From Rhizobiaceae bacterium (lineage in GTDB: Bacteria > Pseudomonadota > Alphaproteobacteria > Rhizobiales > Rhizobiaceae): a stretch of 64,000 nucleotides of DNA. Under the pieces are notes generated by a model. The model was not told where the DNA came from. It ran no database searches and worked only from the letters and a program-made list of their open reading frames with translations. Each line of letters begins with the position of its first letter. Position 1 is the stretch's first letter. This document shows positions 47,556 to 63,931 of the stretch, piece after piece. Location: assembly GCA_017643495.1 (NCBI GenBank), contig JAEPNK010000001.1, forward strand, positions 1,097,623-1,161,622, written 5' to 3'. A program made the position numbers and the translations under genes.

Positions 47556-48995
47556 TCACGCTGCCATCCGCTGCCCGGTTGTCCGGGTTACAAGGTAGGG
47601 CTCGAGGCCTTCTGATGCCCCCTCGATTCCGTACCCGCTTTCCTTGCATCCTGCAAAGGGTGTTTCCGGAAGGGAAATCGTGCAGGTATTCAACCCGATC
47701 ATGCCGGTTTCCAGCCGTTCAGATATCTCCCGGGCCCGGGAAAGCGATTGGGTGAAGGCATAACCAGCAAGGCCGAACTGAAGGGCGTTTGCTCGCGAAC
47801 ATACATCATCAATGTCGGTGAAACTGGTGATGGGTGCAATTGGTCCAAATGGCTCTTCGGTCATGACCATCGAACTGTCGGGAGCATCAGCAATGACTGT
47901 TGGCGGGTAGTAAAAGCCTTCATTACCCTGTCGTGCTCCACCAGTAAGGATTCGTGCACCACTCTTTTCTGCATCCGCGACGAAAGTATCCATGGCATCC
48001 AGTCGCCGCGTGTTTGCCAATGGCCCCATTTGTGTTGCGGCCTCAAGACCGTTGCCGATCCGCCGCGCTTTTGCCCGGCTGACAAATCCCTCGACAAAGG
48101 CATTGTAGACATTTTCCTGCACGTAAAACCGGGTAGGTGAAACGCATACCTGCCCAGCATTTCGCAATTTGCCCTCGATTGCAACGTCGAGTACGCGATC
48201 AAGGTCAATGTCATCAAATACCACGACGGGTGCATGCCCGCCCAGCTCCATGGTTGCCCGTTGCATGTTGCCGGCGGCAAGGGCTGCGATGTGTTTGCCG
48301 ACAGGGATCGAGCCGGTAAAGGAGACTTTTCTGATAACAGGTGAGGCCATCAGGTGCCGTGAAACCTGGTCGGGAACTCCGAAAACAAGCTGGATCGCAC
48401 CGGCAGGAACCCCGGCATCGTGAATTGCCCGGACATACTCCACGGCACTTGCCGGTGTTTCCTCAGCCGCTTTTGCGATGATTGCGCAACCCGCTGCCAG
48501 GCCAGCGGCAATTTTTCTCGAAGGCGTGTTTATCGGAAAGTTCCATGGTGTCATAGAAAGTGAAACACCTACCGGGTGTTTGCGAACCTGATATTCGGTT
48601 TCGCTTTCCCGCGATGCGATGATCCGGCCATAGGAGCGTCTTCCCTCTTCGGCAAACCACTCTGTATAATCGGCAGCAGAGGACACTTCGGCGCGTGCCT
48701 CTGTGATCGTCTTTCCCTGTTCGAGAGTCAGAATGGTTGCAATATGCTCTCTTCTTTCACGCAGCAGGTTTGCTGCACGGCGCAGAATTTCAGCTCGCTC
48801 ATGCGGCTGTATTCGCCGCCAGGTTTCGAATCCCGTTTGTGCAGCGTCCAGTGCTTCATCCAGATCTGTTGAGCTTGCATGTGGCAGTATCGCAAGCGGT
48901 GTTCCTGTTGCAGGGTTGATAACCTCTTCGCCTGTGTTCTCACTGCCTTTGCGCCATTGACCGGCAATTAGCATATTAAGATCTGGATATGTCAT
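47556..48995 (-). CDS. Succinate-semialdehyde-type aldehyde dehydrogenase
   Basis: A 479-residue NAD(P)-dependent aldehyde dehydrogenase. The active site has the catalytic Glu in ATMELGGHAPVVVFDD and Cys in NAGQVCVSPTRFYVQ. The cofactor loop is TPWNFPINTPSRKIAAGLA. The overall pattern is of GabD and alpha-ketoglutaric semialdehyde dehydrogenases. It is the last gene of the left operon. Its likely job is to oxidise the aldehyde made by the class III aminotransferase or the PLP lyases encoded nearby. The start at 48995 matches family length; the ORF runs to 49052. Confidence 0.87.
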   Translation of the reverse strand: MTYPDLNMLIAGQWRKGSENTGEEVINPATGTPLAILPHASSTDLDEALDAAQTGFETWRRIQPHERAEILRRAANLLRERREHIATILTLEQGKTITEARAEVSSAADYTEWFAEEGRRSYGRIIASRESETEYQVRKHPVGVSLSMTPWNFPINTPSRKIAAGLAAGCAIIAKAAEETPASAVEYVRAIHDAGVPAGAIQLVFGVPDQVSRHLMASPVIRKVSFTGSIPVGKHIAALAAGNMQRATMELGGHAPVVVFDDIDLDRVLDVAIEGKLRNAGQVCVSPTRFYVQENVYNAFVEGFVSRAKARRIGNGLEAATQMGPLANTRRLDAMDTFVADAEKSGARILTGGARQGNEGFYYPPTVIADAPDSSMVMTEEPFGPIAPITSFTDIDDVCSRANALQFGLAGYAFTQSLSRAREISERLETGMIGLNTCTISLPETPFAGCKESGYGIEGASEGLEPYLVTRTTGQRMAA

Positions 48996-49041
48996 GCTGA
49001 TTTCTCGCTTGTGTTTGTAAAAGGGCCTGATCGGGTTCCTG

Positions 49042-49920
49042 TCAGCTAGCAAATGGCCACGCCCTTCCGGGCCGGGAAAGTTTCAGGCGGTAAACAGAGG
49101 TTTGGGCGGTAACAAACAGCGTGCACAAGTCGCTGCCACCCCATGTGAAATTTGTTGCTTCCTCGGGAAATGCGAGTGTTTCAAGCAATTCCGCATCCGA
49201 TGAAAATACCTGTATTCCGCCGGGGCCACAGGAAAACACACGCCCGGAAGCGTCCAGCTTCAATCCATCAGGGCAGCCGTTATCCTGACCGCTTGTTACT
49301 GCAAAAATACCGTTGTCTTCGAGTTTGCCGGGTCCGGCTATGTTGAAATGGCGGATGTGAAACCGCCTTGTGTCCGAGACATAGAGCGTTTTACCGTTTT
49401 CGCCGATACACAGCCCGTTGGGCTGGTCAAAATCATCGGCAGCCAGATGCAGCTGGCCATCAGGCGCAATGCAGTAAACCCCCTGGAAACCCAGCTGTTG
49501 GGGACGTTCGATACCATACTCGGCCAAGCGCCCGTAAACGGGATCGGTGAACCAGATTGCACCTGTGCAATCGGCAATGACATCATTCGGGCTGTTGAGT
49601 TCGTGTTGTTGCCAGTGGGAGGCAAGAACACTCAACGTTCCGTCCGCTTCTTCTCGAACAATTCTGCTTGTGCCGTGTTCGCAACTCACCAGTCTGCCCT
49701 GACAATCCCTGGTGCTGCCATTGGCAAAATTGCTGGGTTTTCGATAAACGCCCAATTTCCCGTCGGCCTCGAGCCTGTAGATGACATTGCCACGAATGTC
49801 ACTGAACACAAGACTTCCGGTTTCATGATACCAGACAGGGCCTTCGGTAAATTGCAGGCCGCCAACAACCAGTTCAACCGTTGCGCCGGGCGCAACAATA
49901 TTTGAGGATATCCCGGTCAT
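49042..49920 (-). CDS. SMP-30/gluconolactonase family protein
   Basis: A 292-residue six-bladed propeller hydrolase of the SMP-30/Gnl family that opens sugar lactones. The metal-site Glu is in QFTEGPVWYHETGSLVFSDI. The segments NSPNDVIADCTGAIWFTDPVYG and FDQPNGLCIGENGKTLYVSD supply Asn and Asp ligands. Its start overlaps the GntR gene stop by four bases (ATGA). A lactonase here suggests that a sugar or polyol is oxidised to a lactone by one of the SDRs. Confidence 0.87.
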   Translation of the reverse strand: MTGISSNIVAPGATVELVVGGLQFTEGPVWYHETGSLVFSDIRGNVIYRLEADGKLGVYRKPSNFANGSTRDCQGRLVSCEHGTSRIVREEADGTLSVLASHWQQHELNSPNDVIADCTGAIWFTDPVYGRLAEYGIERPQQLGFQGVYCIAPDGQLHLAADDFDQPNGLCIGENGKTLYVSDTRRFHIRHFNIAGPGKLEDNGIFAVTSGQDNGCPDGLKLDASGRVFSCGPGGIQVFSSDAELLETLAFPEEATNFTWGGSDLCTLFVTAQTSVYRLKLSRPGRAWPFAS

Positions 49921-50624
49921 TGTTCTTCTTCTGATGCCTCACCGGCCGCTTCGCTTTCCTGAATTCGGGCAATCGTGTAATTCATGGCGCCGGTGATATC
50001 TGCCTGGATGAAGGTTTTGGCTGACGACCCGTCTCCGTTTTTCATGGCATCAATGATCATCAGCCTGAGATTGCCCCGCTCCATGCTAGAGTAATCAGGG
50101 AAAAGCAGGCTGCGATAGGGTGCGGTGCGTAACCAAAGGCCGCGGATCAGGTTGATCAGATGGGTTTGCCGGGTTGCATCATACAATGTGAAATGAAACC
50201 GTTGAATCCGTTCCATGGCAGCAGCGATATCACCGACATCCCGCGTTGCACGGATTTCGTCATCAATCTGGCGCAGCTTTCCGATAAACTCGGGAGTGCT
50301 GTTTCCGGTGGCTATTTCAACAGCCCGGCCCTCTAGCAACACTCTTATGTCCCTTAATTCCCGCAGCTCTCCGGATGTAAGCAAAGGCACGCGGATATGC
50401 CTGTTGGGGGCAAAATCAATGGCGTTCTCGACTGACAACTGGCGGATAGCGTCCCGGATTGGTGTTGATGAGGTGTCAAGCATCGCCATCAATTGCCTGA
50501 GCGTGATTTTTTCACCCGGCTTCAACCGCCCGGAAAGCAGCGCCTGCGCAATCTGCTCATACGCATAATCAGACAATGTTTGCTTTTCAGAGCCGTTTTC
50601 CTGTTCGCCCATGTTGCCGTTCAT
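49917..50624 (-). CDS. GntR-family regulator (FCD type)
   Basis: A 235-residue repressor. The N-terminal winged helix is LSDYAYEQIAQALLSGRLKP then LRQLMAMLDTSSTPIRDAIR. The C-terminal helical FCD effector domain shows the usual Asp and His metal ligands region (RFHFTLYDATRQTHLINLI). The start at 50624 overlaps the stop of the SDR gene (TGATG), which suggests coupling; the ORF opens at 50642. Lying inside the left operon, it is the prime candidate for binding the TGTTGCAACA sites at 57027 and 57120. Confidence 0.9.
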   Translation of the reverse strand: MNGNMGEQENGSEKQTLSDYAYEQIAQALLSGRLKPGEKITLRQLMAMLDTSSTPIRDAIRQLSVENAIDFAPNRHIRVPLLTSGELRELRDIRVLLEGRAVEIATGNSTPEFIGKLRQIDDEIRATRDVGDIAAAMERIQRFHFTLYDATRQTHLINLIRGLWLRTAPYRSLLFPDYSSMERGNLRLMIIDAMKNGDGSSAKTFIQADITGAMNYTIARIQESEAAGEASEEEQ

Positions 50625-51412
50625 CAAAATAGCCTTCCACAATCAACCTGAAGTGTTTGCCCCGTAATTGCTTTTTGCATGCTCAGAAACACGATCGCAT
50701 CAGCAACATCATCAGCCTCGACCATACGGCCAAGCATTGTATTGGCAAGTGAGCGCTGTTTACGTTCTTCAGGCCACTTCTCTGTCCACGGTGTTCTGGT
50801 CAGGCCAGGAGCCACAGCATTTACATTGATATCGGGACCAAGGCCTTTCGCAAGGTTCCGTGTCAGGTTGATAAGCGCCGCCTTGCTGGCCCCGTATGCA
50901 AGGGAGCTTGCATCGCCACCGAGGCCGGCAGTGGATGCAACATTCACGATGGAACCATTTGAGTTTTTGAGGGCCTTGCTTGCAGCATGGATTGTGTTGA
51001 ACGCCCCGACAAGATTGGTATTGAGCGTTGCTTCCCACAGCTCCGGTGTTATTCCGTCCAGATCCGAGAACGGGACCGGGTCCTGAACGCCTGACGTGCC
51101 GGCATTGTTTACAAGTGTGTCCAGTCCGTCGAAATCATCAATTGCATACTGGATCATTGCCTTTGCAGAGACAGGATCTGAGATGTCGGCAGGCAAGGCC
51201 GTAACCATGCCCACCCATTCTTGTGCCAGGTTTCCGATTTGTGTTTCGGCTGATGCATCTCCAGCCAGGAAATTGCAGCCCACCCTGGCCCCGGCCCGAA
51301 GAAAATTTCGTGCCGTTGCCAGTCCAATCCCGGATCCTGCCCCGGTTACGACAATGCGCAATCCGGACAGGTTTGCGTTGATCCTTTGGTGAGTGAAAAC
51401 CTGTTTGCTCAT
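50624..51412 (-). CDS. Short-chain dehydrogenase/reductase
   Basis: A 262-residue classical SDR. Key elements are VVTGAGSGIGLATARNF, LVNNAGTSG and the catalytic SIVNVASTAG...SLAYGASKAA. The second-strand end lacks the Asp of strict NAD-dependent forms (VGCNFLAGDASA), so NADP is possible. It lies between the PLP-enzyme and GntR genes in the left operon. Its substrate is probably an intermediate of the island's pathway. The start at 51412 (MSKQVF) fits family length. Confidence 0.88.
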   Translation of the reverse strand: MSKQVFTHQRINANLSGLRIVVTGAGSGIGLATARNFLRAGARVGCNFLAGDASAETQIGNLAQEWVGMVTALPADISDPVSAKAMIQYAIDDFDGLDTLVNNAGTSGVQDPVPFSDLDGITPELWEATLNTNLVGAFNTIHAASKALKNSNGSIVNVASTAGLGGDASSLAYGASKAALINLTRNLAKGLGPDINVNAVAPGLTRTPWTEKWPEERKQRSLANTMLGRMVEADDVADAIVFLSMQKAITGQTLQVDCGRLF

Positions 51413-51425
51413 CAGCCTGCTCTTG

Positions 51426-52673
51426 TCAGTAGGTTGCGGCGGCAGCCTGTTTTGCAACGGCTCCTGTATTCCGCACTTCACTGACCGAAGCCGCCAGATC
51501 TGAAAGATAGAGATCCGCAGTTTTCGCATGCACAGGATTGAGATGCATGTGAATGCCCACCGGCTCTGCCTGACGTCCGATAAACCAGCCGCGCTTGGTC
51601 ATTTCTTCACCGACCGCACCGATATCAAGGTCAGGGTCTTCGGATGTATAAACGAACAGGCACAGTTCGTGTGGTTTGAGAACTGTCAATCCCTCAATGG
51701 CATCAATGCCGTCCGTCAGCTTCTTGACTGTATCCATAATCACCTTGGCCCACAGGGTGTATCCTTCTTCGCCAAGATAGTTCATCACAGCCCATGCTGC
51801 TGCAACAACACCGCCGGCCCGTGTGCCTTGCATGGTGTCATTGACATAGGGGCCGCGCTCCCAGTCGTTGAAGTCAAATACCTGGTATTTGTGAAGAGCT
51901 TCATCACGCAACATCATCATGGATGCTCCCTTGGGGGCATAGCCGTATTTGTGAATATCGGCCGAGATTGATGTAACGCCGGGTACGGAGAAATCGAAAT
52001 CGGGTATGTCATATCCCAGCTTTTTGACCCAGGGTGCCAGAAATCCGCCTACGCACGCATCTACATGCATCCAGAGATTGTGTTTCTGAGCCACGTCAGC
52101 GACATCAGCGACGGGGTCGAAAACTCCGTACGGATAATTTGGCGCACTGGCCATTGTCATGATGGTGTTGCTGTCAAAGCGTTTTTCCAGTTCTGCTGGA
52201 TCCGCACGGTAATCGGCCCGGGTGGTTGGCACACGGATTACCTTGATGTTCAGGAATGCGGCAGACCGGTCAAAGGCCGGATGGGCCGTGCGGGGTATGA
52301 CGATATTCGGCTCCGTAATCCCTTTGGTATCCCTGGCCCAGTCCCGGGCAGTTTTCATTGCCATGAAAATTGATTCAGACCCGCCGGATGTGAAGGTAGC
52401 CTTTGCGTTCGCCGGTGCATGATGCAAAGCCAGCCCCATTTCCAGCACTTCTGATTCAAGTTTGAGCATGCTGAAGAAGGTTTTCTTGCCCATCGCATTT
52501 TCAGTCCAGTAGGTTTTATAGGCTTCCTGCTGAACACGTTTAACTTCCTCGTCGAGATAGTAGAAATACAAGGCCATTCGGCCTTCTTCCCATTTGAAGT
52601 CATCCTTCTTCGCGTCTTCCAGTTCGGTTTTCAGTTCGTCCCAGGGACGGCCTTTTAGCGGGATTACGGTCAT
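51426..52673 (-). CDS. PLP-dependent lyase/decarboxylase, sphingosine-1-phosphate-lyase-like (paralogue 1)
   Basis: A 415-residue fold-type I group II PLP enzyme. Asp205 in MHVDACVGGFLAP should contact the pyridine nitrogen. Lys242 in SADIHKYGYAPKGA is the Schiff-base lysine. The pattern HVDACxGGF...GVTSIS-SAD-x-HKYGYAPKG is closer to sphingosine-1-phosphate lyase than to glutamate decarboxylase (which has SxxxHK in a different setting). It could therefore cleave a C-C bond of a hydroxylated amine or decarboxylate an amino acid. No membrane helix is present. It follows aapP by 46 bp in the left operon and is paralogous to the product of 57164-58426. Confidence 0.85.
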   Translation of the reverse strand: MTVIPLKGRPWDELKTELEDAKKDDFKWEEGRMALYFYYLDEEVKRVQQEAYKTYWTENAMGKKTFFSMLKLESEVLEMGLALHHAPANAKATFTSGGSESIFMAMKTARDWARDTKGITEPNIVIPRTAHPAFDRSAAFLNIKVIRVPTTRADYRADPAELEKRFDSNTIMTMASAPNYPYGVFDPVADVADVAQKHNLWMHVDACVGGFLAPWVKKLGYDIPDFDFSVPGVTSISADIHKYGYAPKGASMMMLRDEALHKYQVFDFNDWERGPYVNDTMQGTRAGGVVAAAWAVMNYLGEEGYTLWAKVIMDTVKKLTDGIDAIEGLTVLKPHELCLFVYTSEDPDLDIGAVGEEMTKRGWFIGRQAEPVGIHMHLNPVHAKTADLYLSDLAASVSEVRNTGAVAKQAAAATY

Positions 52674-52719
52674 GTTTTCCTCTTCATGTGTTAGGTTCGG
52701 TATTTCATTGCTGGCCCAG

Positions 52720-53475
52720 CTAGGCGTGCATGATCTGGTTGAGAAACGCTTCCACGCGGGGATTGGCGAGGTCGCGGTCAAAAAACTGTTCGGGTGGAAG
52801 GTTTTCGATAATGGATCCCTGCTCCATCATCACCACGCGGTCGGCGACACGTTTTGTGAATCCCATTTCATGGGTAACAACAATCATGGTCATGCCGCGT
52901 TCGGAGAGTTCGCTCATCACATCAAGAACTTCGCCGACCATTTCAGGATCAAGGGCAGATGTCGGTTCGTCGAAAAGCATTACCCTCGGGCGCATGCAAA
53001 GTGCACGGCAGATCGCCACCCGTTGCTGCTGGCCACCGGACAGCATTTCAGGATACTTCAATGCTTGATCGGCGATTTGCACCCGAGCAAGTTCTTCCAT
53101 TGCCCTGGCTTCCGCCTCGGCACGTGAAACCTTGAGAATTTTCATGGGGCCGATACAGCAGTTTTCCAGTATCGAGAGATGAGGGAAGAGATTGTATTGC
53201 TGAAACACCATCCCGACGTGACGGCGAAGGTCGTGGGCGGTACCGTCGCGTTCGGAAACAACAGTGCCTCCGACGCTTACTTCACCGCCTTGATAGGCTT
53301 CAAGTCCGTTGATGGTGAATACAGCCGTGGATTTTCCCGAACCCGACGGTCCGCACAGCACGATCTTTTCACCTTCGCTTACTTCAAGGTTCACATCGCG
53401 CAGGACATGAAGGTTGCCATACCATTTGTTGACATTGCGCAGTGCGATGATCGGTGGCCTGTGTGTTGTCATCAT
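52720..53475 (-). CDS. aapP: Amino-acid ABC transporter ATP-binding protein (AapP-like)
   Basis: A 251-residue ABC ATPase of the polar amino-acid group. Walker A is [16 protein letters not shown], the signature is [15 protein letters not shown], and Walker B is [12 protein letters not shown]. The H-loop is VVTHEMGF. It energises the AapQ/AapM permease pair encoded upstream. Gene order J-Q-M-P and protein lengths match the rhizobial general L-amino-acid permease, although the catabolic context suggests a specialised substrate. Confidence 0.92.
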
Positions 53476-53485
53476 CGGTCCGGCC

Positions 53486-54592
53486 TCAATGTTGCTGACG
53501 CATGCTGATGCGTCGTTCGATGCGGCGGCTGTACCAGCTCATGCTTGCACACACCGCCAGATAAATTGCGGCGATGAACACATAAGCCTCGATGAAAAGC
53601 CCAAGCCATTCCGGGTCTGCCTTGGCTGCGTTTGCCGTTCCCAGAAGATCGAGCATCGAGATCACAATGACGAGTGAGGTATCCTTGAAACCCGCGATGA
53701 ACAGATTGACCATGGAGGGAATGGTTATACGCAGTGCCTGGGGCAGGATGATGTATATCATCGATTGCCAGTATCCCATGCCCATTGCTTTGGCAGCTGC
53801 ATACTGACCGTCTGGCACTGCCTGCAATCCACCGCGAACCGTTTCAGCCATGTAGGCGGCAAAGAACATGATGAATGCCACCTGGGCCCGGACGATATTG
53901 GGTATGGTTACATCTGCCGGGAGCAACAGCGGCAACATGATGTTGGCCATAAACAGGAGTGATATCAGCGGAACACCCCTGATAACTTCAATATAGACAA
54001 TGCAAATCCACCTGATGGCCGGCATGGAAGAACGCCGTCCCAGTGCCAGCAGTATCGAGGCAAGGAAACAGGCCGCCATGCCAACAACTGCCAGAAGGAC
54101 AGTAAGCGGCAGGCCAGACCAGAAACGGATCTCGACATGTGGAAGTCCAAGGCCACCGGACATCAGAACACCGATAAGCAATATTCCGACGAGCCATAGG
54201 CCGAACATCCAGCGCTTGCGTTCCTGCGTTTTCCAACTGGCCGGAATGCAGGTTGCAATCACCAGCAGCAAGAACAGCACCAACGCCAATGCCGGACGCC
54301 ACTGCTGGTCAAACGGGTAAGTCCCGAAAAGGATCAGCCGCCATTTGTCCTGAATGAATGCCCAGCAGGCACCGCCTGCATCAATACATTCCCGGATGGT
54401 CGCAGGTGCCAGGGTTGCATCCAGAACAGCCCAGGTGAAGGCGCCCGTTATGGCTTTGTACAATATCCACAGGATCACCAGGGTCAGAACCGAATTGCCC
54501 AGGCTGCCAAAGAAATTTTGCCAAATCCAGGTAACCAGTCCCTTTTGTGGTGGGCGCGGTGGAGAGGGGATATCTGTCATCGGTACAGTCAT
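53486..54592 (-). CDS. aapM: Amino-acid ABC transporter permease (AapM-like)
   Basis: A 368-residue inner-membrane permease with about eight helices. The EAA-type loop is [27 protein letters not shown]. The preceding [14 protein letters not shown] is typical of the HisM/GlnP family. Its length with extra N-terminal helices matches AapM (about 380). The start at 54592 lies one base after the aapQ stop, with GGAG upstream; the ORF itself opens at 54622. It forms a heterodimer with AapQ. Confidence 0.9.
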
Positions 54593-54593
54593 C

Positions 54594-55811
54594 CTATTTC
54601 TCCACAAATGCGATGCGGGCATTGTACCAGTTCATGAATGCCGAGGTCAGAAGGCTCAGGCACAGGTAGATGGCCATCAGGATTGTGATGCATTCAATTG
54701 CGCGCCCGGTTTCGGAAATGACTGCCGTCGAGACGCGCACGAGTTCCGGATAACCAATGACAACTGCCAGTGAACTGTTCTTGGTCAGGCTCATGTATTG
54801 CCCGGCCATGGGAGGTACGATGATCCGCATTGCCTGGGGCAAAACCACCTTGCTGAGAACTAGTGAGCCGGGAAGACCCAAGCTGCGTGCTGCCTCAAGC
54901 TGACCTTTCCGGACACCCATGATGCCGGAACGTATGGTCTCCGCCGCAAATCCGGACTGGTATACGGAAAGGGACACGAGAACAGCTACAAATTCAGGGG
55001 TTATTGTGGTGCCGCCCAGAAAATTGAAACCCTTGAGCTCAGGTACATCAAAACTCATGCCGAAGCTGGCTATCACGACCATTGCCAATGGCAGGCCGAT
55101 CAGCGCAGTCATGCCGGCAAGCGCAGGCTTGTGAACTGCACCGGTTCTTTTTCGATAGTTCTGCGCGAAACGATAGACAAAAAATGCAGCGACAACCCCG
55201 AGAAGCAAGCCGACAAAACCCCAATAGTGCAGGGGGGACATGACCGGAGACGGCATGTAGATGCCGCGGTTGGAAACAAAGACGCCGGGTGCAGGATTGA
55301 GCGCCTGGCCAGGAAACGGCAACAGGGTCGAGAAGCCGTACCAGAACAGCATTTGCAGCAATAGCGGGATATTGCGAACGGTCTCGGTGTAGACCAGTGC
55401 GACGTTTGAAACGAGTTTGTTTTCAGACAACCTTGCAAGGGCAACGACAAGGCCCAGAAAAGTGCAGCAGATAATGCCCAGAATTGAAACCCGTACCGTA
55501 TTGATGAAGCCGACTGCGAAGGTCAGCCATATGGGGCTCTTGGCTGTAGCATCCAGATAGTTCGGACCCATTTCAAATCGGGTCGGTAGCGAAAGAAAAT
55601 CCAGGCCAAAACCAATGTTTGAACGGGGCAGATTGGTGCTGACATTGGCCACGATGGACCAGGCAACATAGAGAATGAAGGAAATGGCGAGCATTTGCCA
55701 GACAACATGAATTACCCATGGGCGGCGCCAAAACGGACGTTGTCTTACATCCTCCAGTCTTTGAACTGACTGGCTGGAAAAGTTTCCGGTTTTGTTTGTC
55801 AGGTCTGTCAT
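54594..55811 (-). CDS. aapQ: Amino-acid ABC transporter permease (AapQ-like)
   Basis: A 405-residue permease. It has about eight hydrophobic helices and the conserved QSGFAAETIRSGIMGVRKGQ and LEAARSLGLPGSLVLSKVVL segments that contact the ATPase. The length fits AapQ (about 400). It is the second gene of the transporter block, 75 bp after the binding-protein gene, and abuts aapM. Confidence 0.9.
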   Translation of the reverse strand: MTDLTNKTGNFSSQSVQRLEDVRQRPFWRRPWVIHVVWQMLAISFILYVAWSIVANVSTNLPRSNIGFGLDFLSLPTRFEMGPNYLDATAKSPIWLTFAVGFINTVRVSILGIICCTFLGLVVALARLSENKLVSNVALVYTETVRNIPLLLQMLFWYGFSTLLPFPGQALNPAPGVFVSNRGIYMPSPVMSPLHYWGFVGLLLGVVAAFFVYRFAQNYRKRTGAVHKPALAGMTALIGLPLAMVVIASFGMSFDVPELKGFNFLGGTTITPEFVAVLVSLSVYQSGFAAETIRSGIMGVRKGQLEAARSLGLPGSLVLSKVVLPQAMRIIVPPMAGQYMSLTKNSSLAVVIGYPELVRVSTAVISETGRAIECITILMAIYLCLSLLTSAFMNWYNARIAFVEK

Positions 55812-55886
55812 GTCGCCAGCTTCCGTAATGCGCCTTGTCCAGTCTGGCAGCGCTGCCGCCAGACCAGTCTTCTCAAGTGTAGTAAA

Positions 55887-56909
55887 TCAGCGCCAGTTGG
55901 GAGCCCACTGCAAGCCACCATCCTTTGCAAGGGCATTCAGGCCCCGCGGCAACTTGACGGCCGACTTCATGCCGAAATTGCGCTCCCAAATATCGTCATA
56001 GTTGCCCGTCGCGCGGATGATGTTGACGGTGAAGTCGTTCGGCAGTCCCATTTTTTCTCCCAGCGTCTCTGTTACACCGAGAAACCGCTGAAGTTCCGGG
56101 TCTTCGGTTTTGAGCATTTCGTCGATGTTTTCCTGGTTGATGCCAAACTCGTCAGCCTGGATGAGGGCATAATGCACCCAGCGGGCAACGTTGGACCACT
56201 GCGGGTCTGATTCAAGGATCACCGGTCCCATATGCGATTTTGCAAAGACTTCCTCGAAAATGACGTGATCATCCGGGTTCTTCATGCGCAAGCGGCGCGT
56301 ACCCAGAAACGGGATTTCCGATGTTACAACATCGCAGCGGCCATTTTCGTAATACTCGTATCTCTGATTGGTATTCTCAAAGGCAACGGGTGTGTAAGTG
56401 AGGTTGCGTGCTGAAAAGTAATCCGAAATCAGGCTGTCAGTCACGGTGCCTGCAACCACGCAGACCGAAGCGCCGTTCAGGTCTGCAATTTTGGTTGCGC
56501 CTGTACGCTTGTGAACCATGAAGCCGTGACCCGAGTAGAGGGTTGGTCCGACAAAATCGAGACCCAGTTCGCTGTCACGTCCAATTGTGTAGGTTATTGC
56601 CAGTCCCGCCATGTCCACTTCGCGGGATTTTACTGCCGGCATGCCCTGGGCAAAGGTCATTGTTACGAATTCCACGGCGTCGCCATCACCAAAGAGTGCG
56701 GCTGCCAGGGCTCGGCAATAGTCGACATCAAAGCCTTGCCACCGGCCCTGGTCGTCGAGCGTCGCAAGTGCAGGCACATTTTGGTATATGCCGCAGCGAA
56801 GCTTTCCCCGTTCCTTGATCTCGTCAAGAATGGCGCCTGCAGTTGCCGTAGTGGCAGATGCCGCAGCAATCACGCCTGCGGCTAGAATGGATTTCAATAG
56901 AGTTCTCAT
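55887..56909 (-). CDS. aapJ: Amino-acid ABC transporter substrate-binding protein (AapJ-like)
   Basis: A 340-residue periplasmic binding protein with a signal peptide (LKSILAAGVIAAASATTATA). The SBP_bac_3 fold shows LRCGIYQNVPALATLDDQGR, GFDVDYCRALAAAL and the AapJ-type ending in IWERNFG. The general L-amino-acid binding proteins of rhizobia are about 341 residues. A strong AGGAGGAAG precedes the start. It heads the left operon; the TGTTGCAACA palindrome at 57027 is 118 bp upstream. Confidence 0.92.
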   Translation of the reverse strand: MRTLLKSILAAGVIAAASATTATAGAILDEIKERGKLRCGIYQNVPALATLDDQGRWQGFDVDYCRALAAALFGDGDAVEFVTMTFAQGMPAVKSREVDMAGLAITYTIGRDSELGLDFVGPTLYSGHGFMVHKRTGATKIADLNGASVCVVAGTVTDSLISDYFSARNLTYTPVAFENTNQRYEYYENGRCDVVTSEIPFLGTRRLRMKNPDDHVIFEEVFAKSHMGPVILESDPQWSNVARWVHYALIQADEFGINQENIDEMLKTEDPELQRFLGVTETLGEKMGLPNDFTVNIIRATGNYDDIWERNFGMKSAVKLPRGLNALAKDGGLQWAPNWR

Positions 56910-57026
56910 ACTCTTCCTCCTGTTGTCAGTCAGTATGCGGATATTGTTCCCCTCCCGGAGTTACCTCTTCAAGGCGGCCCGCAATGATGTGGAGGCTACA
57001 TGTAGTTTTCCCAATTGTCACTATAA

Positions 57027-57036
57027 TGTTGCAACA
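57027..57036. promoter_or_regulatory. Palindrome TGTTGCAACA, copy 1 (probable GntR operator)
   Basis: Perfect 10-bp palindrome in the divergent promoter region, on the aapJ side. The centre-to-centre distance to copy 2 is 93 bp, close to nine helical turns, which would suit looping by a dimeric or tetrameric repressor. Confidence 0.6.
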
Positions 57037-57119
57037 AAAATTTCGAAAAGTGGGAAAATACACAAAACAAGAGGTTTAATAAGGTATTTTTTGCAAATCT
57101 GGTTGACTAATAAAAAATA

Positions 57120-57129
57120 TGTTGCAACA
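57120..57129. promoter_or_regulatory. Palindrome TGTTGCAACA, copy 2 (probable GntR operator)
   Basis: Second perfect copy, extended to the 12-bp palindrome ATGTTGCAACAT (57119-57130). It lies 34 bp before the start of the right operon. A -35-like TTGACT at about 57103 is just upstream, so binding here could block that promoter. Confidence 0.6.
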
Positions 57130-57163
57130 TTTAAAGCCTGGATGCCAATTGAGGAGTGGTTGA

Positions 57164-58426
57164 ATGTTGCGCGAAGGCGGCGGATTTCCCAAGGACGGGG
57201 CAGCTTGGGCTGACGTTGAGGAGGCCTTGATATCGTTCAAGCAGGATGACCTGGATTGGCGACGCGGAAGGTTGCCTGCCTACATCTACTATTTCGATGA
57301 AGATGTTCTTCGCGTGCAGATGGATGCCTATCGTCTCTATGCGGTTGAGAACGGCTTGGGCGAAGGAAAGGCTTTTTTCAGTCTGACCAGAATGCTCGAG
57401 GATATCAGTTCGATGTGCCTTGATCTCTTCAACGGCCCTTCTGATGGTGCTGCATCATTCACCTCCGGGGGGACGGAGAGTCTCATTGAGGCGGTACGCA
57501 CCGCCAAGAAGCGGCATGTACTTGAAAAAGGCCGTGATTATCCTTTGAACGTTGTTGCCCCGTATTCTGCCCACGCCGCTCTGAACAAGGCTGGTGAAGT
57601 GCTTGATGTGGAGATCAGGCGCATTCCCTTGGCTGACGAATTTCGTGCCGACCCCGCGGCGATGGCCGGTGCGGTCGACGATGGAACGATCATGCTTTTC
57701 GGCTCTGCGCCGTGTTTTCCATACGGTGTGATTGATCCGATCCGCGAGCTCGGAAAGGTCGCGCTGGAAAAAGGCCTCTGGTTGCATGTGGACGCATGCT
57801 GGGGTGGGTTCATTTCACCTTTCGCCAAGCAACTGGGTTATCCGATACCGGATTGGGATCTTGGCGTGCCAGGGGTGACCAGCGTATCTGCCGACATTCA
57901 CAAGTTTGCATATGGAGCCAAAGGCGCCTCCCTGCTGCTCTTCCGCGATGCGTCCCTGAAAGAACTGGAACGCTTCAGCTTTTCAGACTGGCCAAGAGGT
58001 ACATATGCCACGCCGACGCTGATGGGCAGCAAACCTGCCGGATCTATCGCCTCGGCATGGGCTGTAATGAACTATCTGGGAAATGAAGGATATCTGCGGA
58101 CAACAAAGGCGGCGATGGACGCCACGATGGGGTTCATTCGCGGCATTGATGCAATCGACGGATTGCATTGTCTTCAACCAACCGGTGAAGCCAACCTGTA
58201 CGCTTTCGTATCCGATGACCCGCAGGTGGATATCATGGCCGTGGCCGATGTCCTGCAGAACAAGGGCTGGTTCCCGGGCAGGATGCGTGAGCCGTTGGCC
58301 ATACAGCAAGGTGTCAATCCGGTGCACCTGCCAATTGTCGATGAATATGTTTCGGATGTTGCCAGTGCAGTCGCCGAAGTGCGGAGCAGGGGTAGGCAGG
58401 GTCAATATGACGAGAACAGCTACTGA
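57164..58426 (+). CDS. PLP-dependent lyase/decarboxylase, sphingosine-1-phosphate-lyase-like (paralogue 2)
   Basis: A 420-residue paralogue of the enzyme at 51426-52673. They share collinear motifs throughout: an early YIYYFDED, SGGTES (phosphate contact), WLHVDACWGGFISPF with Asp210, and SVSADIHKFAYGAKGAS with Lys247. The Trp in place of Val after DAC, and AYGAKG for GYAPKG, suggest a different substrate or a partner role. It opens the right operon with GAGGAG before the ATG, 34 bp after the palindrome. Decarboxylase or retro-aldol lyase activity is not settled. Confidence 0.85.
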   Translation: MLREGGGFPKDGAAWADVEEALISFKQDDLDWRRGRLPAYIYYFDEDVLRVQMDAYRLYAVENGLGEGKAFFSLTRMLEDISSMCLDLFNGPSDGAASFTSGGTESLIEAVRTAKKRHVLEKGRDYPLNVVAPYSAHAALNKAGEVLDVEIRRIPLADEFRADPAAMAGAVDDGTIMLFGSAPCFPYGVIDPIRELGKVALEKGLWLHVDACWGGFISPFAKQLGYPIPDWDLGVPGVTSVSADIHKFAYGAKGASLLLFRDASLKELERFSFSDWPRGTYATPTLMGSKPAGSIASAWAVMNYLGNEGYLRTTKAAMDATMGFIRGIDAIDGLHCLQPTGEANLYAFVSDDPQVDIMAVADVLQNKGWFPGRMREPLAIQQGVNPVHLPIVDEYVSDVASAVAEVRSRGRQGQYDENSY

Positions 58427-58450
58427 GAACGACAAGGCTCTGACAGCAAA

Positions 58451-59839
58451 ATGACTATACAGAATTCAACCGCTGAAATGGACAGGGTTGCACATTTGCA
58501 CCCATACACCAATGCCCGCAAACAGGAGGCGGAAGGTCCTCGCGTCATGGTGCGCGGCGACGGAATTCATGTCTATGATGCGCAGGGAAACGAGTATATC
58601 GAGGGCCTGGCCGGTCTTTGGTCCGTGGCGGTTGGCTTCGGAGAAAAACGGTTGCAGAAAGCTGCTTCGGACCAGATGGGGAAGCTCCCATATTACCATG
58701 TGTTCGCACAGAAAACCCATGATCCCGCTGCCCGTCTGGCTGACAAGCTCGTTGAAATTACGCCCGATCACCTGACCAAGGTGTTTTTCACCAATTCAGG
58801 CTCTGAAGCCAATGACACGGTGGTCAAGCTCGTCTGGTTCATGAACAACGCGCTGGGGCGGCCGGGCAAGAAGAAGTTTATTGCCCGAACCAATGCCTAT
58901 CATGGAATTACCGTTGCCAGCGGTTCGCTGACCGGCCTGCCCTGGAACCACAACTCTTTTGACCTCCCGGCCATTCCGGTGCGCCATCTGACATGTCCCC
59001 ATGCCTATTTCCATGCGAATGAAGGCGAGACTGAAGAACAGTTTACCGAGCGGCTAGCCGATGAACTCGAAGCGGTAATCGAGGAGGAAGGGCCGGAAAC
59101 AATCGCTGCATTCATTGGGGAGCCTTTAATCGGTGCTGGCGGTGTGCTGGTGCCGCCAAAGGGTTACTGGCAGAAGGTGCAGGAGATATGCCGTCGTCAC
59201 GAGATACTCATCGTCGCCGATGAGGTAATTACCGGATTTGGCCGTACCGGCAATATGTTTGCCTGTGAGACATTTGGCATTCATCCTGATGTTTTGGTCA
59301 CGTCAAAACAGATTACTTCTTCGTATCAACCCCTGGCCGCAATCATGTTTGCGGATGAAATGTACCAGGTTATTGCCGATCATACTGACAAGCTGGGGAC
59401 CCTCGGACACGGATTTACCGGCTCCGCACATCCTGTTGCAACGGCTGTGGCACTCGAAAACCTGGCAATCATTGAAGAGCAAATGCTTGTTCAAAACGCT
59501 GGGAAAATGGGGGCGGTACTGCAAAAAGAGCTCGCAAGATTTCTTGATCATCCCATGGTCGGGGAAGTGCGCGGATGCGGGCTCATTGCCGCTGTTCAAC
59601 TGGTTGCAGACAAGTCCGGACGGAAACCCTTCAATCCTGAGGGGAAAGTGGGGGGATATTTCTTTGAGTGCGCACACGATCATGGCCTGATTGTTCGCAA
59701 CATCAAGGACGCGATCGCAATATGTCCGCCTCTCATCATCAATGAAGCTCAGGTGAAAGAACTGGTAACGCGTTTTGAAAAGGCGCTTGACCAGACCTGG
59801 GAGTTTGCAATTTCCGCAGGGCTCACGGCTGGGGCATAG
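58451..59839 (+). CDS. Class III omega-aminotransferase
   Basis: A 462-residue PLP aminotransferase related to putrescine-, taurine- and beta-alanine-pyruvate aminotransferases. The cofactor sites are FFTNSGSEANDTVVKL, YHGITVASGSLTG, ADEVITGFGRTG, and the Schiff-base Lys in TSKQITSSYQPL. These enzymes turn a terminal amine into an aldehyde. It follows the PLP lyase gene by 24 bp, so a decarboxylate-then-transaminate order is likely, with the aldehyde passed to the dehydrogenase at 47556-48995 or an SDR. Confidence 0.9.
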   Translation: MTIQNSTAEMDRVAHLHPYTNARKQEAEGPRVMVRGDGIHVYDAQGNEYIEGLAGLWSVAVGFGEKRLQKAASDQMGKLPYYHVFAQKTHDPAARLADKLVEITPDHLTKVFFTNSGSEANDTVVKLVWFMNNALGRPGKKKFIARTNAYHGITVASGSLTGLPWNHNSFDLPAIPVRHLTCPHAYFHANEGETEEQFTERLADELEAVIEEEGPETIAAFIGEPLIGAGGVLVPPKGYWQKVQEICRRHEILIVADEVITGFGRTGNMFACETFGIHPDVLVTSKQITSSYQPLAAIMFADEMYQVIADHTDKLGTLGHGFTGSAHPVATAVALENLAIIEEQMLVQNAGKMGAVLQKELARFLDHPMVGEVRGCGLIAAVQLVADKSGRKPFNPEGKVGGYFFECAHDHGLIVRNIKDAIAICPPLIINEAQVKELVTRFEKALDQTWEFAISAGLTAGA

Positions 59840-59854
59840 GAAAAGGATACCGAC

Positions 59855-60547
59855 ATGACATCTGTTGCAATCGTGACGGGCGGAGGCTCGGGGATCGGGC
59901 TGGCGGCCGCCCAATACCTCTCACAAACACACAGGGTTATATGCTGTGGATTGGACCACATTGATGAATTCCCGGATGATCTGGAGTTCAGGGAACTTGA
60001 TGTAACTGACGAAAATGCGGTTACTGCTTGCTTCAGCGACATTTCGGAATGTTCAGCGCTGGTAAACTGTGCAGGCATGATTGTGCAGGACAGGCAGGAA
60101 TTCGAGATACAGAATTTCCGCAAGGTTATCGATGTCAATCTCAACGCAGTTCATCTCGTAACCAACAGTCTGGTTGATGCACTGGCCGTTGCAGGCGGAA
60201 GTGTCGTCAACATCGCTTCCATGTACAGTGTGTTCGGTTCTCCCAATACACCGGCCTATTCCGCCAGCAAGGGTGGTATCGTTTCACTGACCCGTTCCCA
60301 TGCCGTTGCCTTTGCAGGCAGGGGTGTGCGCGTAAACGCAGTGGCACCTGGCTGGATTGATACGCGACTGGCTTCAAATGCAATTCACAATGAAGAACGC
60401 AGAAACAGGATAATGGAGCGTTTGCCGATGCGCCGTTTCGGGGAACCGGCAGATGTTGGAAGCGTGATCGCTTTTCTTGTTTCAGAGGAAGCCCGTTACA
60501 TCACAGGCGCTGTGCTTCCAGTTGATGGAGGCTACTCGATTGCTTGA
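59855..60547 (+). CDS. Short-chain dehydrogenase/reductase
   Basis: A 230-residue SDR. It shows IVTGGGSGIGLAAAQYL, LVNCAGMI and the catalytic SVVNIASMYSVFG...PAYSASKGG. The second strand ends in CGLDH, a possible NAD-binding Asp. AAAGGA precedes the start at good spacing. It sits 15 bp after the aminotransferase gene and 32 bp before another SDR gene. Two adjacent SDRs in one operon suggest stepwise oxidation or reduction of a polyol-type intermediate. Confidence 0.88.
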   Translation: MTSVAIVTGGGSGIGLAAAQYLSQTHRVICCGLDHIDEFPDDLEFRELDVTDENAVTACFSDISECSALVNCAGMIVQDRQEFEIQNFRKVIDVNLNAVHLVTNSLVDALAVAGGSVVNIASMYSVFGSPNTPAYSASKGGIVSLTRSHAVAFAGRGVRVNAVAPGWIDTRLASNAIHNEERRNRIMERLPMRRFGEPADVGSVIAFLVSEEARYITGAVLPVDGGYSIA

Positions 60548-60579
60548 AATCTGCCATTTGCCAGAAAAGGAAATCTGAC

Positions 60580-61341
60580 ATGTTCAACGACCTCACGGGC
60601 AAGGCCGTTTTGGTCACCGGTGCCAGCAGGGGTATCGGTGCGGCTATCGCAAACGGTTTTGCAGAAGCTGGAGCCCATGTGGCGATCCACTATAATGCCA
60701 GCCGGGAACCTGCGGAGAAACTGGCCGAATCTATCAATCAGTCCGGCGGAAAGGCCGTGACAATAGGAGGGGATTTTTCACGGTCCCCCGAGGCACGCAA
60801 GACTGTTGAAGAGGCAGCAACCCGTTTGGGCGGGTTGGATGTCCTTGTCAATAATGCAGGCGCCATGGTCGACCGCCGGGATTTTGTTGACATTGATGAT
60901 GAACTTCTCGATGCAGTAAATGATCTCAACATCAAGTCTTTGGTGGCTGCTTCTCAGGCTGCGGTTCCTCATCTGGAAAAGTCGGCTAACGGTGCCATTG
61001 TGAACCTTGGTTCCATTGCCGGGGCAAATGGCGGTGGCGCCTCCGTCGCACACTATGCGGCAGCCAAGGGTTATGTACACACAGTAACCCGTTCCATGGC
61101 CATGGCGCTTGCCGGAAAGGGAATTCGGGTGAATGCCATCGCGCCGGGCGTTATCAATACGGATTTCCACGCTGCTACCCCGCCCGAGATCCTCAATAAT
61201 CTGAAAAGCATGATCGTCATGGGACGCCTTGGGGATGCGGAAGATTGTGTTGGTTCCGCGCTGTTTTTGTCATCCAGGAAAGCCAGCGGATACATCACAG
61301 GCCAGGTTCTGCACATCAACGGCGGCCAGTACATGGCGTAA
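60580..61341 (+). CDS. Short-chain dehydrogenase/reductase (FabG-like)
   Basis: A 253-residue SDR close to the 3-oxoacyl-ACP-reductase/glucose-dehydrogenase type. It shows VLVTGASRGIGAAIANGF, VLVNNAGAMV and GAIVNLGSIAGANGGGASVA with HYAAAKGYV (Ser-Tyr-Lys). The HYNASREPAE at the end of strand two favours NADP. The start at 60580 follows AAAAGGA; the ORF opens at 60544. It lies 30 bp before the transketolase genes, where a ketose product could be used. Confidence 0.88.
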   Translation: MFNDLTGKAVLVTGASRGIGAAIANGFAEAGAHVAIHYNASREPAEKLAESINQSGGKAVTIGGDFSRSPEARKTVEEAATRLGGLDVLVNNAGAMVDRRDFVDIDDELLDAVNDLNIKSLVAASQAAVPHLEKSANGAIVNLGSIAGANGGGASVAHYAAAKGYVHTVTRSMAMALAGKGIRVNAIAPGVINTDFHAATPPEILNNLKSMIVMGRLGDAEDCVGSALFLSSRKASGYITGQVLHINGGQYMA

Positions 61342-61371
61342 CTGCCTGTTCTGATCATACAGGATACAATC

Positions 61372-62250
61372 ATGACAAACCCGAAACACAATGCCCCACC
61401 AGCTGGGCACAACTTTTCACCCGAGGAACTGGCCCGGTTGCGCGATCGTGCCCGCTTTGTCAGGCTTGAAACCATCAGGCTTATCGAAATTGCGAAGATA
61501 GGCCACTACAGTTCGGTGTTTTCTGCTGCAGAGATTTTTGCAGCGCTTTACTACAGTGTGATGCGCCTGCACGAGGACAATCCGGACTGGCCAGACCGTG
61601 ACCGGTTCCTGATGGGCAAGGGTCACGCTGCTGTCGGCCTGTTCCCGATACTTGCCGATCTCGGATATCTCGATACGGAAACGCTGAACGGATACACACG
61701 TCTCGGTAACCCGCTGGGGGATCATCCGGACATGCGAAAAGTTCCCGGGGTGGATTTCAGTTCAGGATCAATCGGTCACGCACTTTCAAACGGTGCAGGC
61801 ATGGCACTGGGAGGGCGTTTGCAGGGTCGCGATTTTTCGGTGTTCGTAATGATGGGAGACGGAGAAATGCAGGAGGGTCAGGTTTGGGAAGCAGCGCAGT
61901 TTGCAGCGCATCACAAGTTGTCACGCCTGATTGCCATTGTTGACCGAAACGGATTCCAACTGGACGGAGCGGTTGACGATGTAATCGGTGTCGAGCCCCT
62001 GGATGAGCGTTGGCGCAGTTTTGGTTGGGAAACCCATGTCGTGGATGGCCATGACCTGACAGAACTGACGCCGCTTTTGCATCGTCTGAAAAACGATTGC
62101 GGACGGGAGCGACCTGCCTGCGTTATTGCAAAAACGCTTAAGGGCAAGGGTGTTTCCTACATGGAAACCGAACCCGGATGGCATTTGGGCTATCTGGACC
62201 CGGTTGATGCCGAGTCAGCGATTGCAGAAATCATGAGCCGGGAGATTTGA
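61372..62250 (+). CDS. Transketolase, N-terminal (TPP-binding) subunit
   Basis: A 292-residue subunit equal to the N-terminal half of transketolase. TPP/Mg-binding residues are in MGDGEMQEGQVWEAAQFA, followed by LIAIVDRNGFQLDG. The catalytic-site His residues are in GKGHAAVGLFPIL and GSIGHALSNGAGMALG. It pairs with the next gene (TGATG overlap), as in other split transketolases that act in sugar catabolism, such as the apulose-4-phosphate and sulfosugar types. No sugar kinase is in the cluster. Confidence 0.92.
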   Translation: MTNPKHNAPPAGHNFSPEELARLRDRARFVRLETIRLIEIAKIGHYSSVFSAAEIFAALYYSVMRLHEDNPDWPDRDRFLMGKGHAAVGLFPILADLGYLDTETLNGYTRLGNPLGDHPDMRKVPGVDFSSGSIGHALSNGAGMALGGRLQGRDFSVFVMMGDGEMQEGQVWEAAQFAAHHKLSRLIAIVDRNGFQLDGAVDDVIGVEPLDERWRSFGWETHVVDGHDLTELTPLLHRLKNDCGRERPACVIAKTLKGKGVSYMETEPGWHLGYLDPVDAESAIAEIMSREI

Positions 62251-63239
62251 TGATGAAGGCCGAGATAAAATCCGACAAGTCCTGGCAGTACCGTGCGTTG
62301 AACGTGAACAATCCGGGGCTTCATTTTCTTTCAGATGGACTGATTGAACTACGTGAGGCAGGTCATCCTGTGGTCGCGGGTGCAGCAGATCTCCAGTATT
62401 CCAACGGGCTGAACAAGTTTGCCGAGCGTTTTCCCGATCGTTACGTCCAGTGCGGGATTTCTGAACAGAACATGGTGTCAATGGCTGCAGGCCTGGCTAC
62501 TACCGGAGAGATGCCGTTCTTTGCAACCTTTGCATCATTTCTGGGGTTGTTGTGCTGTGAACAGATTCGCATGGATGTCGCATATTGTGCGCAGCCTGTC
62601 CGCCTGATCGGTCACCATACAGGCATTTCAATGGGTTTTTACGGGACTTCGCATCATGCTACTGAAGATATTTCAACGATGCGCGCAATTGCGGATCTGA
62701 CAATTATTTCTCCTGCTGATGGCCCACAACTCCATGCGGCGATAAAGGCATCCGTTGACTGGGACCAGCCAATATACTTTCGAACCGGCCGTGGACGTGA
62801 ACCGGATGTATATGAAAAGGGCAGGGTATTCGAGATTGGCAAGGCGATAGAACACATGGAAGGGGAGGACCTGACCATCATTGCATGCGGGATTACCGTG
62901 CATTCGGCAATTCAGGCAGCAAAGGCAATGCGAAAGGACGGTTTGTCCGTGGGTGTGATCGACATGGCAACCATAAAACCGCTTGATCGCGATGCCGTAC
63001 TTGCAGCAGCCGACCGCTCCAAAATCATGATGACGGTAGAAGAACACAATATCATGGGCGGTCTTGGTTCAGCGGTTGCAGAAGTTCTGGCTGATGAGGG
63101 GTGCGGTGTGCGCCTGGCACGCCACGGAATCTATGACGAGTACAGCCTGATTGCGCCTCCTGCCCATCTTTATTCTCATTACAGGCTCGACGGTGCAGGA
63201 GTTGAGCAGGCGGCGAGGGAAGCGATCCGGAACGCCTGA
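62250..63239 (+). CDS. Transketolase, C-terminal (pyrimidine-binding) subunit
   Basis: A 329-residue subunit equal to the middle and C-terminal domains of transketolase. The TPP-activating Glu is in QCGISEQNMVSMAAGLA. TSHHATEDISTMRAI and the C-terminal domain (VGVIDMATIKPLD, EEHNIMGGLGSAVAEVL) are typical. The ATG at 62250 overlaps the preceding stop; an ATG at 62253 is also possible. It closes the right operon. The complex should move a two-carbon ketol unit; donor and acceptor are unknown. Confidence 0.92.
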   Translation: MMKAEIKSDKSWQYRALNVNNPGLHFLSDGLIELREAGHPVVAGAADLQYSNGLNKFAERFPDRYVQCGISEQNMVSMAAGLATTGEMPFFATFASFLGLLCCEQIRMDVAYCAQPVRLIGHHTGISMGFYGTSHHATEDISTMRAIADLTIISPADGPQLHAAIKASVDWDQPIYFRTGRGREPDVYEKGRVFEIGKAIEHMEGEDLTIIACGITVHSAIQAAKAMRKDGLSVGVIDMATIKPLDRDAVLAAADRSKIMMTVEEHNIMGGLGSAVAEVLADEGCGVRLARHGIYDEYSLIAPPAHLYSHYRLDGAGVEQAAREAIRNA

Positions 63240-63262
63240 CCGCAGTTGGCCTTTGTGCCCGG

Positions 63263-63931
63263 TTATTGCCGCAGCGTCTGGTCCTGTAGATACATGTCGC
63301 GCGAGGGCAAGATGTGCTGACGGCAAAGACGGGCAAGGTCATCCCGGTTTCCGGTCCGGGCGGCCTCGATAATCTGCTTGTGTTCCTCGATGGCCATTTG
63401 CAGGAGCTTCGGGTCGCCAATCCTGTAAGAGCGGATGGCATTGCTTGCTGCATCCATGCGCTTGATGGTTTCCGTCAGAAACGCGTTGTCACATTGGCCA
63501 AACAGGGTGTCGTGAAACCTGTTGTTGAGTGCGATGACCTGAACGAGGTCACCTTGTTCTGCTGCCACTTCGTGATCCTGGGCAATTCTGGTCAGCTCGG
63601 ACAGTGTTTCACCGGACATTGGAAGCTGTATCCGGGATATTGCCAGTTGATGAAGGTCGTCACGAAACTCGTACAGTGCAACAACCTCTTCGGTGGAATA
63701 GTCCCTTACGCGCGCTCCGCGATTCTGGGGGCGTTCGATCAGGCCCCGTTGCTCCAGTTCGCTCAGCGCAGAGCGAACCGTATGGCGCTTTGCCCCGAAA
63801 CGCGCCATGAGTTCATCTTCAACAAGACGTTCGCGCGGGCGCATTCTGCCCAGTACCAGATCAAGTTCCAGGTCTTGTACCAGTTCATCCAGCGTTGGAT
63901 TTGGTCTCTGTTTTTTGGCTGTATACGACAT
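63263..63931 (-). CDS. GntR-family regulator (FCD type)
   Basis: A 222-residue FCD-type GntR protein. The winged helix is LVLGRMRPRERLVEDELMAR then FGAKRHTVRSALSELEQRGL. The effector domain has the metal-ligand pattern ALNNRFHDTLFGQC and IEEHKQIIEA. It is convergent with the transketolase genes and has its own upstream region at the window edge, where no TGTTGCAACA copy is seen. It may control the island together with, or instead of, the first GntR protein. Confidence 0.9.
   Translation of the reverse strand: MSYTAKKQRPNPTLDELVQDLELDLVLGRMRPRERLVEDELMARFGAKRHTVRSALSELEQRGLIERPQNRGARVRDYSTEEVVALYEFRDDLHQLAISRIQLPMSGETLSELTRIAQDHEVAAEQGDLVQVIALNNRFHDTLFGQCDNAFLTETIKRMDAASNAIRSYRIGDPKLLQMAIEEHKQIIEAARTGNRDDLARLCRQHILPSRDMYLQDQTLRQ

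Follow-up and report, generated by a model that had tools for sequence, protein, structure and literature searches.

We analysed a 64,000-nucleotide stretch of DNA from a Rhizobiaceae bacterium (contig JAEPNK010000001.1, positions 1,097,623 to 1,161,622; hereafter the window) and found, at window positions 47556-63931, 15 genes in two operons together with a second GntR regulator gene. As judged from sequence, this content supports a catabolic island for an amino compound, equipped with an amino-acid-type importer, two pyridoxal phosphate (PLP) enzymes resembling sphingosine-1-phosphate (S1P) lyases and a split transketolase. The initial annotation of this DNA had proposed such an island, and all the gene families that it listed were found in place with Pfam and NCBIfam. 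The reading that we favour, at a probability of about 0.4, is that a single catabolic route for an amino-acid-like compound is encoded by two modules that are joined and share a control region, module 1 being the minus operon plus the PLP2 gene and module 2 the rest of the plus operon. The families are individually known; the interest of the island lies in three changed subfamilies and in the shared control region. No described pathway with this gene set was found in the open-access literature, a search that could miss a subscription paper.

Operon layout and shared control region

The minus operon (nine genes, leftward) encodes, from its promoter to its end, a solute-binding protein (SBP), two permeases, an ATPase, PLP1, the short-chain dehydrogenase SDR1, GntR1, an SMP-30 protein and an aldehyde dehydrogenase (ALDH), and the plus operon (six genes, rightward) encodes PLP2, a class III aminotransferase (AT3), SDR2, SDR3 and the N and C halves of a transketolase. 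The intergenic gaps within each operon, taken from the coordinates of the open reading frames, are at most 75 bases or negative. The operons had been described as face-to-face; they are in fact divergent, and start at 56909 and 57164 on either side of one 254-bp region (56910-57163). The absence of a sugar kinase, as first annotated, held in the Pfam search: none of the families matched by the 16 island proteins was that of a sugar kinase.

The divergent region contains two identical 10-bp palindromes, TGTTGCAACA, 93 bp apart. The window holds no other copy, and in shuffled sequences the mean was 0.14 copies and two copies were reached in one shuffle of 100. The whole genome (3,737,753 bases in 18 contigs) contains five copies, compared with two of the backward control pattern, and the divergent region of the island is the sole place where a pair occurs at a spacing of about 93 bp. 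Across ten stretches (3.1 kb altogether, that of the window included) close to related genes, six sites of the form TGT-N4-ACA were counted: two fall in the window, two in L045 and one each in L085 and L047 (L numbers denote the loci compared). About 0.6 would be expected, given the background frequency in the eight sequences concerned (0.195 per kb). These sequences favour the joint control that the initial annotation had assumed for the two operons, which becomes likelier because the palindrome is duplicated in the shared control region, the function of the palindromes as operators being a prediction. A GntR regulator, probably GntR1, is predicted to act at the TGTTGCAACA pair. Scans of sigma-70-like promoters gave 6 sites where 12.0 were expected, and those of terminator-like sites gave 26 where 18.1 were expected.

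Changed subfamilies of PLP enzymes, importer and transketolase

PLP1 and PLP2 are 45% identical, and the nearest solved proteins of both are S1P lyases (Table 1). A structure model of PLP2, of mediocre quality (mean pLDDT 65.6, 4 sequences), gave StSPL as the best Foldseek match, in agreement with the sequence search. A tree of 59 sequences placed PLP1 and PLP2 in one clade of 10 (support 89/95) with StSPL outside; within this clade PLP1 pairs with L018, a gene also present in L085, and PLP2 with L002 and L006. The tree excludes L004 and L005, which are loci of the window itself, the duplicate L062, the partial L014 and identical copies, as well as any match below 330 residues in length or weaker than 1e-30.

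Alignment with StSPL (3mad) showed that the PLP-binding lysine K311, the sandwich histidine H201 and the equivalent of Asp274 (StSPL numbering) are present in both enzymes of this shared fold family. PMC6148460 includes a table of residue roles with five phosphate-binding positions (Y105, H129, A103, N126 and K317), of which Tyr105, Asn126 and Lys317 are kept in PLP1 and PLP2 while Ala103 is replaced by Tyr and His129 by Gly in both. Position 129 is Gly in all 10 members of the clade, which is tied to the amino-acid importer, and position 103 is Tyr in nine of them (Phe in L007); only StSPL and L048, among all 59 rows, have His at position 129. The changes at positions 103 and 129 suggest another substrate and do not prove it, because the published lyases themselves vary there: in the same table of five lyases, position 129 is His in four and Gln in one, and position 103 is Ala, with Thr in two. 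Group II amino acid decarboxylases (MfnA, GAD) belong to the same superfamily, and the MfnA model of NCBIfam matched the two PLP enzymes at 220.1 and 198.4 bits, below its cut-off of 299.4; among solved chains these decarboxylases are much farther from PLP1 and PLP2 than S1P lyase is. In Microvirga (L044), a member of the clade (50% identical to PLP1) precedes, on the same strand, a gene scoring above the agmatinase cut-off (191.1 versus 174.3 bits), a neighbour that suits an amine product there.

At the same Microvirga locus (L044:2791-13149) a further S1P-lyase-like gene stands in one run of genes with those for an aldehyde dehydrogenase, a LysR regulator, an amidase and a protein resembling GABA transaminase. 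S1P-lyase-like proteins in which Gly or Tyr stands in place of His129 occur widely across the class (L021, L038 and L051, for example), mostly far from importer genes.

The importer shares its family and its gene order of binding protein, two permeases and ATPase with the general amino acid importer AapJQMP, to which the solved relative 4z9n belongs, and differs in the ligand motifs of its SBP. We compared the SBP with ordinary AapJ-like proteins of the same order (the 29 best relatives): the proteins of the window, L002, L085 and L046 have E-x-P where the ordinary relatives have D-x-S (29/29), and are without the Asn of the first motif, which is present in all 29. These motif positions presumably bind the amino and carboxyl groups of the ligand, as in related proteins.

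Module 1 (AapJQM-like importer, S1P-lyase-like PLP enzyme and GntR regulator) recurs as a unit elsewhere. L085 contains relatives of the SBP (63%), both permeases, GntR (44%) and PLP1 (59%), and L002 contains relatives of the SBP (64%), permease and ATPase genes, with an AapQ-like match in two pieces, and a PLP2 relative (65%). L045 and L046 combine importer and S1P-lyase-like enzyme at lower identity, the PLP enzyme of L046 falling in another clade. We counted neighbours within 5 kb of 48 S1P-lyase-like places in 47 loci (39 of 40 fetched genome stretches, since L062 duplicates L001; three loci on genome contigs; and 5 of 8 plasmid records) and found relatives of the SBP at 4, of a permease at 6, of GntR at 9, of an SDR at 5 and of SMP-30 at 0, figures that are lower bounds because many contigs are short.

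The transketolase domains (Pfam Transketolase_N, Transket_pyr and Transketolase_C, all above cut-off) are divided between two chains, and the best solved match of each half is the split transketolase of Carboxydothermus hydrogenoformans (6yak for the N half, 6yaj for the C half), whose halves are likewise encoded by two adjacent genes (PMC7661550). Plasmid records contained 33 relatives of the C half, 12 of which were read. All 12 have GFYGTSHHATED, and GFYG is present in 13 of 13 sequences (the window and the 12 relatives), whereas GEDG is the motif of 6yaj and of L153, the conventional transketolase of the window's genome. The second variable residue of this motif probably corresponds to D469 of E. 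coli transketolase. In PMC5073344, a D469T exchange opened the E. coli enzyme to aromatic aldehydes, and Ser385 is named as a contact of the substrate phosphate. In an alignment with L153, the stretch ahead of the SADL motif, which contains an Arg in the conventional enzyme, has none here; the Ser after the missing Arg, the His before the SADL motif and a later Arg are all kept. In ordinary transketolase the kept Ser and Arg contact the substrate phosphate, as the missing Arg presumably does. The motif is changed and an Arg is missing, yet the Ser and Arg are kept, and a different substrate is therefore indicated without our naming which.

These 12 loci fall into two contexts. Eight have a glycerol-dehydrogenase annotation, several of them with sugar-type importers, and the other four have an AT3 relative of 43-46%, which is in two pieces in L139. 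An SDR2 relative (48-51%) is present in 4 of the 12 and an ALDH relative (39-42%) in 7; these counts are not independent because L138, L147 and L149 are close to being copies of one another. Of the two contexts, the second is the one that the window resembles, with module 1 placed in front of it. L132, L133, L135, L138, L147 and L149 join a GFYG transketolase to glycerol-dehydrogenase-like and shikimate-dehydrogenase-like genes, which looks like another undescribed pathway.

Proposed route and alternatives

From these genes we infer the chemical steps of a route, their order, the type of PLP reaction, the binding regulator and the substrate. The variant AapJQMP system would import an amino-acid-like compound, in which PLP1 and PLP2 would cleave a bond at the alpha carbon, most likely by decarboxylation to a hydroxylated primary amine, and the class III aminotransferase would convert this amine to an aldehyde or ketone. 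SDR2 and SDR3 could shift the carbonyl to give a 1,3-dihydroxy-2-ketone, for example via reduction to a polyol and re-oxidation, and so could replace an isomerase. The split transketolase would deliver a ketol unit of two carbons to an acceptor from central metabolism, the aldehyde dehydrogenase, similar to succinate-semialdehyde dehydrogenase (SSADH), would oxidise the released aldehyde, and SDR1 and the SMP-30 protein may handle a lactone side step. No sugar kinase would be needed, because the transketolase would transfer the ketol unit directly. The two-subunit transketolase of sulfoquinovose degradation (sulfo-TK) is reportedly a precedent for a catabolic transketolase acting on an unusual ketose; we know of no counterpart of the island's importer and PLP enzymes in that pathway. 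In a more specific version, which we consider unlikely, decarboxylation and transamination of an amino acid would yield an unphosphorylated dihydroxyketone, the C2 unit of this ketone would enter the pentose phosphate pathway via the GFYG transketolase without a kinase, and the same core would serve several plasmid-borne clusters with differing front ends (amino-acid, other amine and sugar importers).

Our main doubts concern the sharing of one substrate by the two modules and the choice between decarboxylation and splitting by the PLP enzymes, and several findings weigh against the single-route reading. The nearest solved structures of PLP1 and PLP2 are lyases rather than decarboxylases. The Ser and Arg that contact the substrate phosphate in ordinary transketolase are kept in the GFYG subfamily, so that the earlier claim of an unphosphorylated ketose is favoured by the changed motif and the Arg missing near its expected place and opposed by these two residues. 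Neither the E-x-P nor the D-x-S form is present in the SBPs of L045 and L044, the latter encoded some 8 kb away from the PLP gene, and the stretches read of L044, L046, L002 and L063 contain no palindrome of the TGT-N4-ACA type. At the 48 S1P-lyase-like places, an AT3 relative was found at 5, a count that is set against no background and for which we claim no enrichment, an ALDH relative at 1 and a transketolase, with many contigs short, at 0; L084, with a class III aminotransferase (Pfam) beside the PLP gene, is not within the five. No locus beyond the window, among those compared, joins both modules. The two sub-modules recur and their sum was not seen elsewhere, and the initial view of all the genes as a single conserved pathway is not borne out.

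This separate recurrence is what would be expected of two independent catabolic operons (importer and PLP enzyme; aminotransferase and transketolase) set back to back by chance among generic SDR, lactonase and dehydrogenase genes. The closest relatives of PLP1 and PLP2 also differ, and GntR2 may belong to a neighbouring operon. However, PLP2 heads the transketolase operon and in L002 its relative adjoins an importer, which links the modules across the operons, and the duplicated palindrome sits in a single shared control region; we consider a chance juxtaposition somewhat unlikely. To the same degree we doubt an island of the same genes based on retro-aldol chemistry, in which PLP1 and PLP2 would split a beta-hydroxy amino compound into an aldehyde, for the SDRs, SMP-30 and transketolase, and a small amine or glycine, the amine going to the aminotransferase. 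Both PLP enzymes are nearest to S1P lyases in sequence and fold and keep the PLP-site residues and three of the phosphate-binding residues, and the smallest conserved set (importer, PLP enzyme and GntR, as in L085) would need few more enzymes if the products were common compounds. The replacements of His129 and Ala103 speak against retro-aldol cleavage and decarboxylation more readily explains the agmatinase-like neighbour in Microvirga, but the present sequence data cannot separate the two reactions. Degradation of sphingolipids, with PLP1 and PLP2 as true S1P lyases and the aldehyde dehydrogenase acting on a fatty aldehyde, would account for the family resemblance; it is very improbable, with two of the five listed phosphate-binding positions changed in both enzymes, an importer of the polar amino-acid type and, in the Pfam results for the island, no family of sphingoid kinases.

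Breakdown of chloramphenicol base (nitrophenylserinol) was another candidate, since such a pathway would call for an amidase alongside an aminotransferase and a transketolase, and an amidase is annotated in L136, L146 and L148, three of the four loci in which the transketolase occurs with an AT3 relative. It was rejected, since the island is without an amidase and the literature gave no support. Sulfonate readings (cysteate, taurine) were set aside for want of a marker gene.

Features, distribution and surroundings of the island

Table 1. Features of the island in window coordinates, with the evidence for each.
Feature	Position	Strand	Evidence
Aldehyde dehydrogenase, SSADH-like (ALDH)	47556..48995	-	Pfam Aldedh 510.5 bits; best NCBIfam TIGR01780, below cut-off
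SMP-30/gluconolactonase-like protein	49042..49920	-	Pfam SGL 163.4 bits
GntR1, GntR/FCD regulator	49917..50642	-	Pfam GntR and FCD; 44% identical relative beside PLP1 relative in L085
SDR1, short-chain dehydrogenase	50624..51412	-	Pfam adh_short_C2
PLP1, S1P-lyase-like PLP enzyme	51426..52676	-	Pfam Pyridoxal_deC; StSPL 1.1e-86 versus MfnA 8.7e-25
ATP-binding cassette (ABC) transporter ATPase	52720..53475	-	Pfam ABC_tran
ABC permease, AapM-like	53486..54622	-	Pfam BPD_transp_1; relatives annotated amino acid permease
ABC permease, AapQ-like	54594..55811	-	Pfam BPD_transp_1; relatives in L045, L046, L085
SBP, AapJ-like, changed ligand motif	55887..56909	-	Pfam SBP_bac_3; solved relative 4z9n 8e-86
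Palindrome TGTTGCAACA, candidate operator 1	57027..57036	.	Sequence; five genome copies
Palindrome TGTTGCAACA, candidate operator 2	57120..57129	.	Sequence; five genome copies
PLP2, S1P-lyase-like PLP enzyme	57164..58426	+	StSPL variant chain 3.4e-75; 45% identical to PLP1; Foldseek best match StSPL
Class III aminotransferase (AT3)	58451..59839	+	NCBIfam NF004767 733.9 bits, cut-off 517
SDR2, short-chain dehydrogenase	59855..60547	+	Pfam adh_short_C2; 48-51% relatives beside transketolase in 4/12 loci
SDR3, short-chain dehydrogenase	60544..61341	+	Pfam adh_short_C2; ATG at 60580 a possible start
Split transketolase, N half	61372..62250	+	Pfam Transketolase_N; split transketolase 6yak 5e-72
Split transketolase, C half, GFYG subfamily	62247..63239	+	Pfam Transket_pyr and Transketolase_C; 6yaj 3e-61
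GntR2, GntR/FCD regulator; island membership uncertain	63263..63931	-	Pfam FCD and GntR

The aldehyde dehydrogenase, first annotated as a semialdehyde dehydrogenase, scored best against the SSADH model TIGR01780, at 474.5 bits and below the cut-off of 646.35, and was also below the cut-off for the other 24 models shown of 42 (NCBIfam). Both annotated GntR genes are present; GntR2 is convergent with the plus operon and divergent to a sugar-type ABC operon starting near 64204, outside the window, and therefore may serve that operon and may not belong to the island. The ABC operon (L154:1327-6249; window numbering 64204-69126) encodes SBP_bac_8, permeases, an ATPase and an RraA-like protein. Farther out (L154:9049-14897; window numbering 71926-77774) lie further genes of catabolic appearance, for a class IV aminotransferase, an FAD-dependent oxidoreductase and an amino-acid-type ABC system, the last read from sequence only.

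The DUF192 gene at the left edge of the island was found in 10 of 11 congeners, while a strong PLP match was found in none of the 11 (one has an 85-residue match at 1.6e-4), only three of which are at least 90% complete. On six congener contigs the genes adjoining DUF192 matched nothing in the window or in the 53 kb that follow it in its genome, save one distant match at window position 11660; two further fetched stretches were too short for use, and comparison of the six contigs did not fix the right boundary of the island. The base composition of the island is ordinary. A gene with two cold-shock domains (window 46322-47480) overlaps the listed start of DUF192, the true start of which is probably further in. 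PLP2 relatives, the own genome counted, were present in 8 of 397 genomes of the order (E 1e-40), 11 of 394 of the family (1e-60) and 45 of 385 of the class (1e-70), and a phylum-wide search with PLP1 at E 1e-110 returned only the window's own genome (1 of 398).

If the single-route reading is true, the island would be a test case for three subfamilies for which we found no assigned substrate, namely the AapJ variant, the linked S1P-lyase-like clade and a catabolic split transketolase whose specificity motif is changed. The transketolase clusters would then imply that some bacteria need no sugar kinase to bring the C2 units of unusual ketoses into central metabolism.

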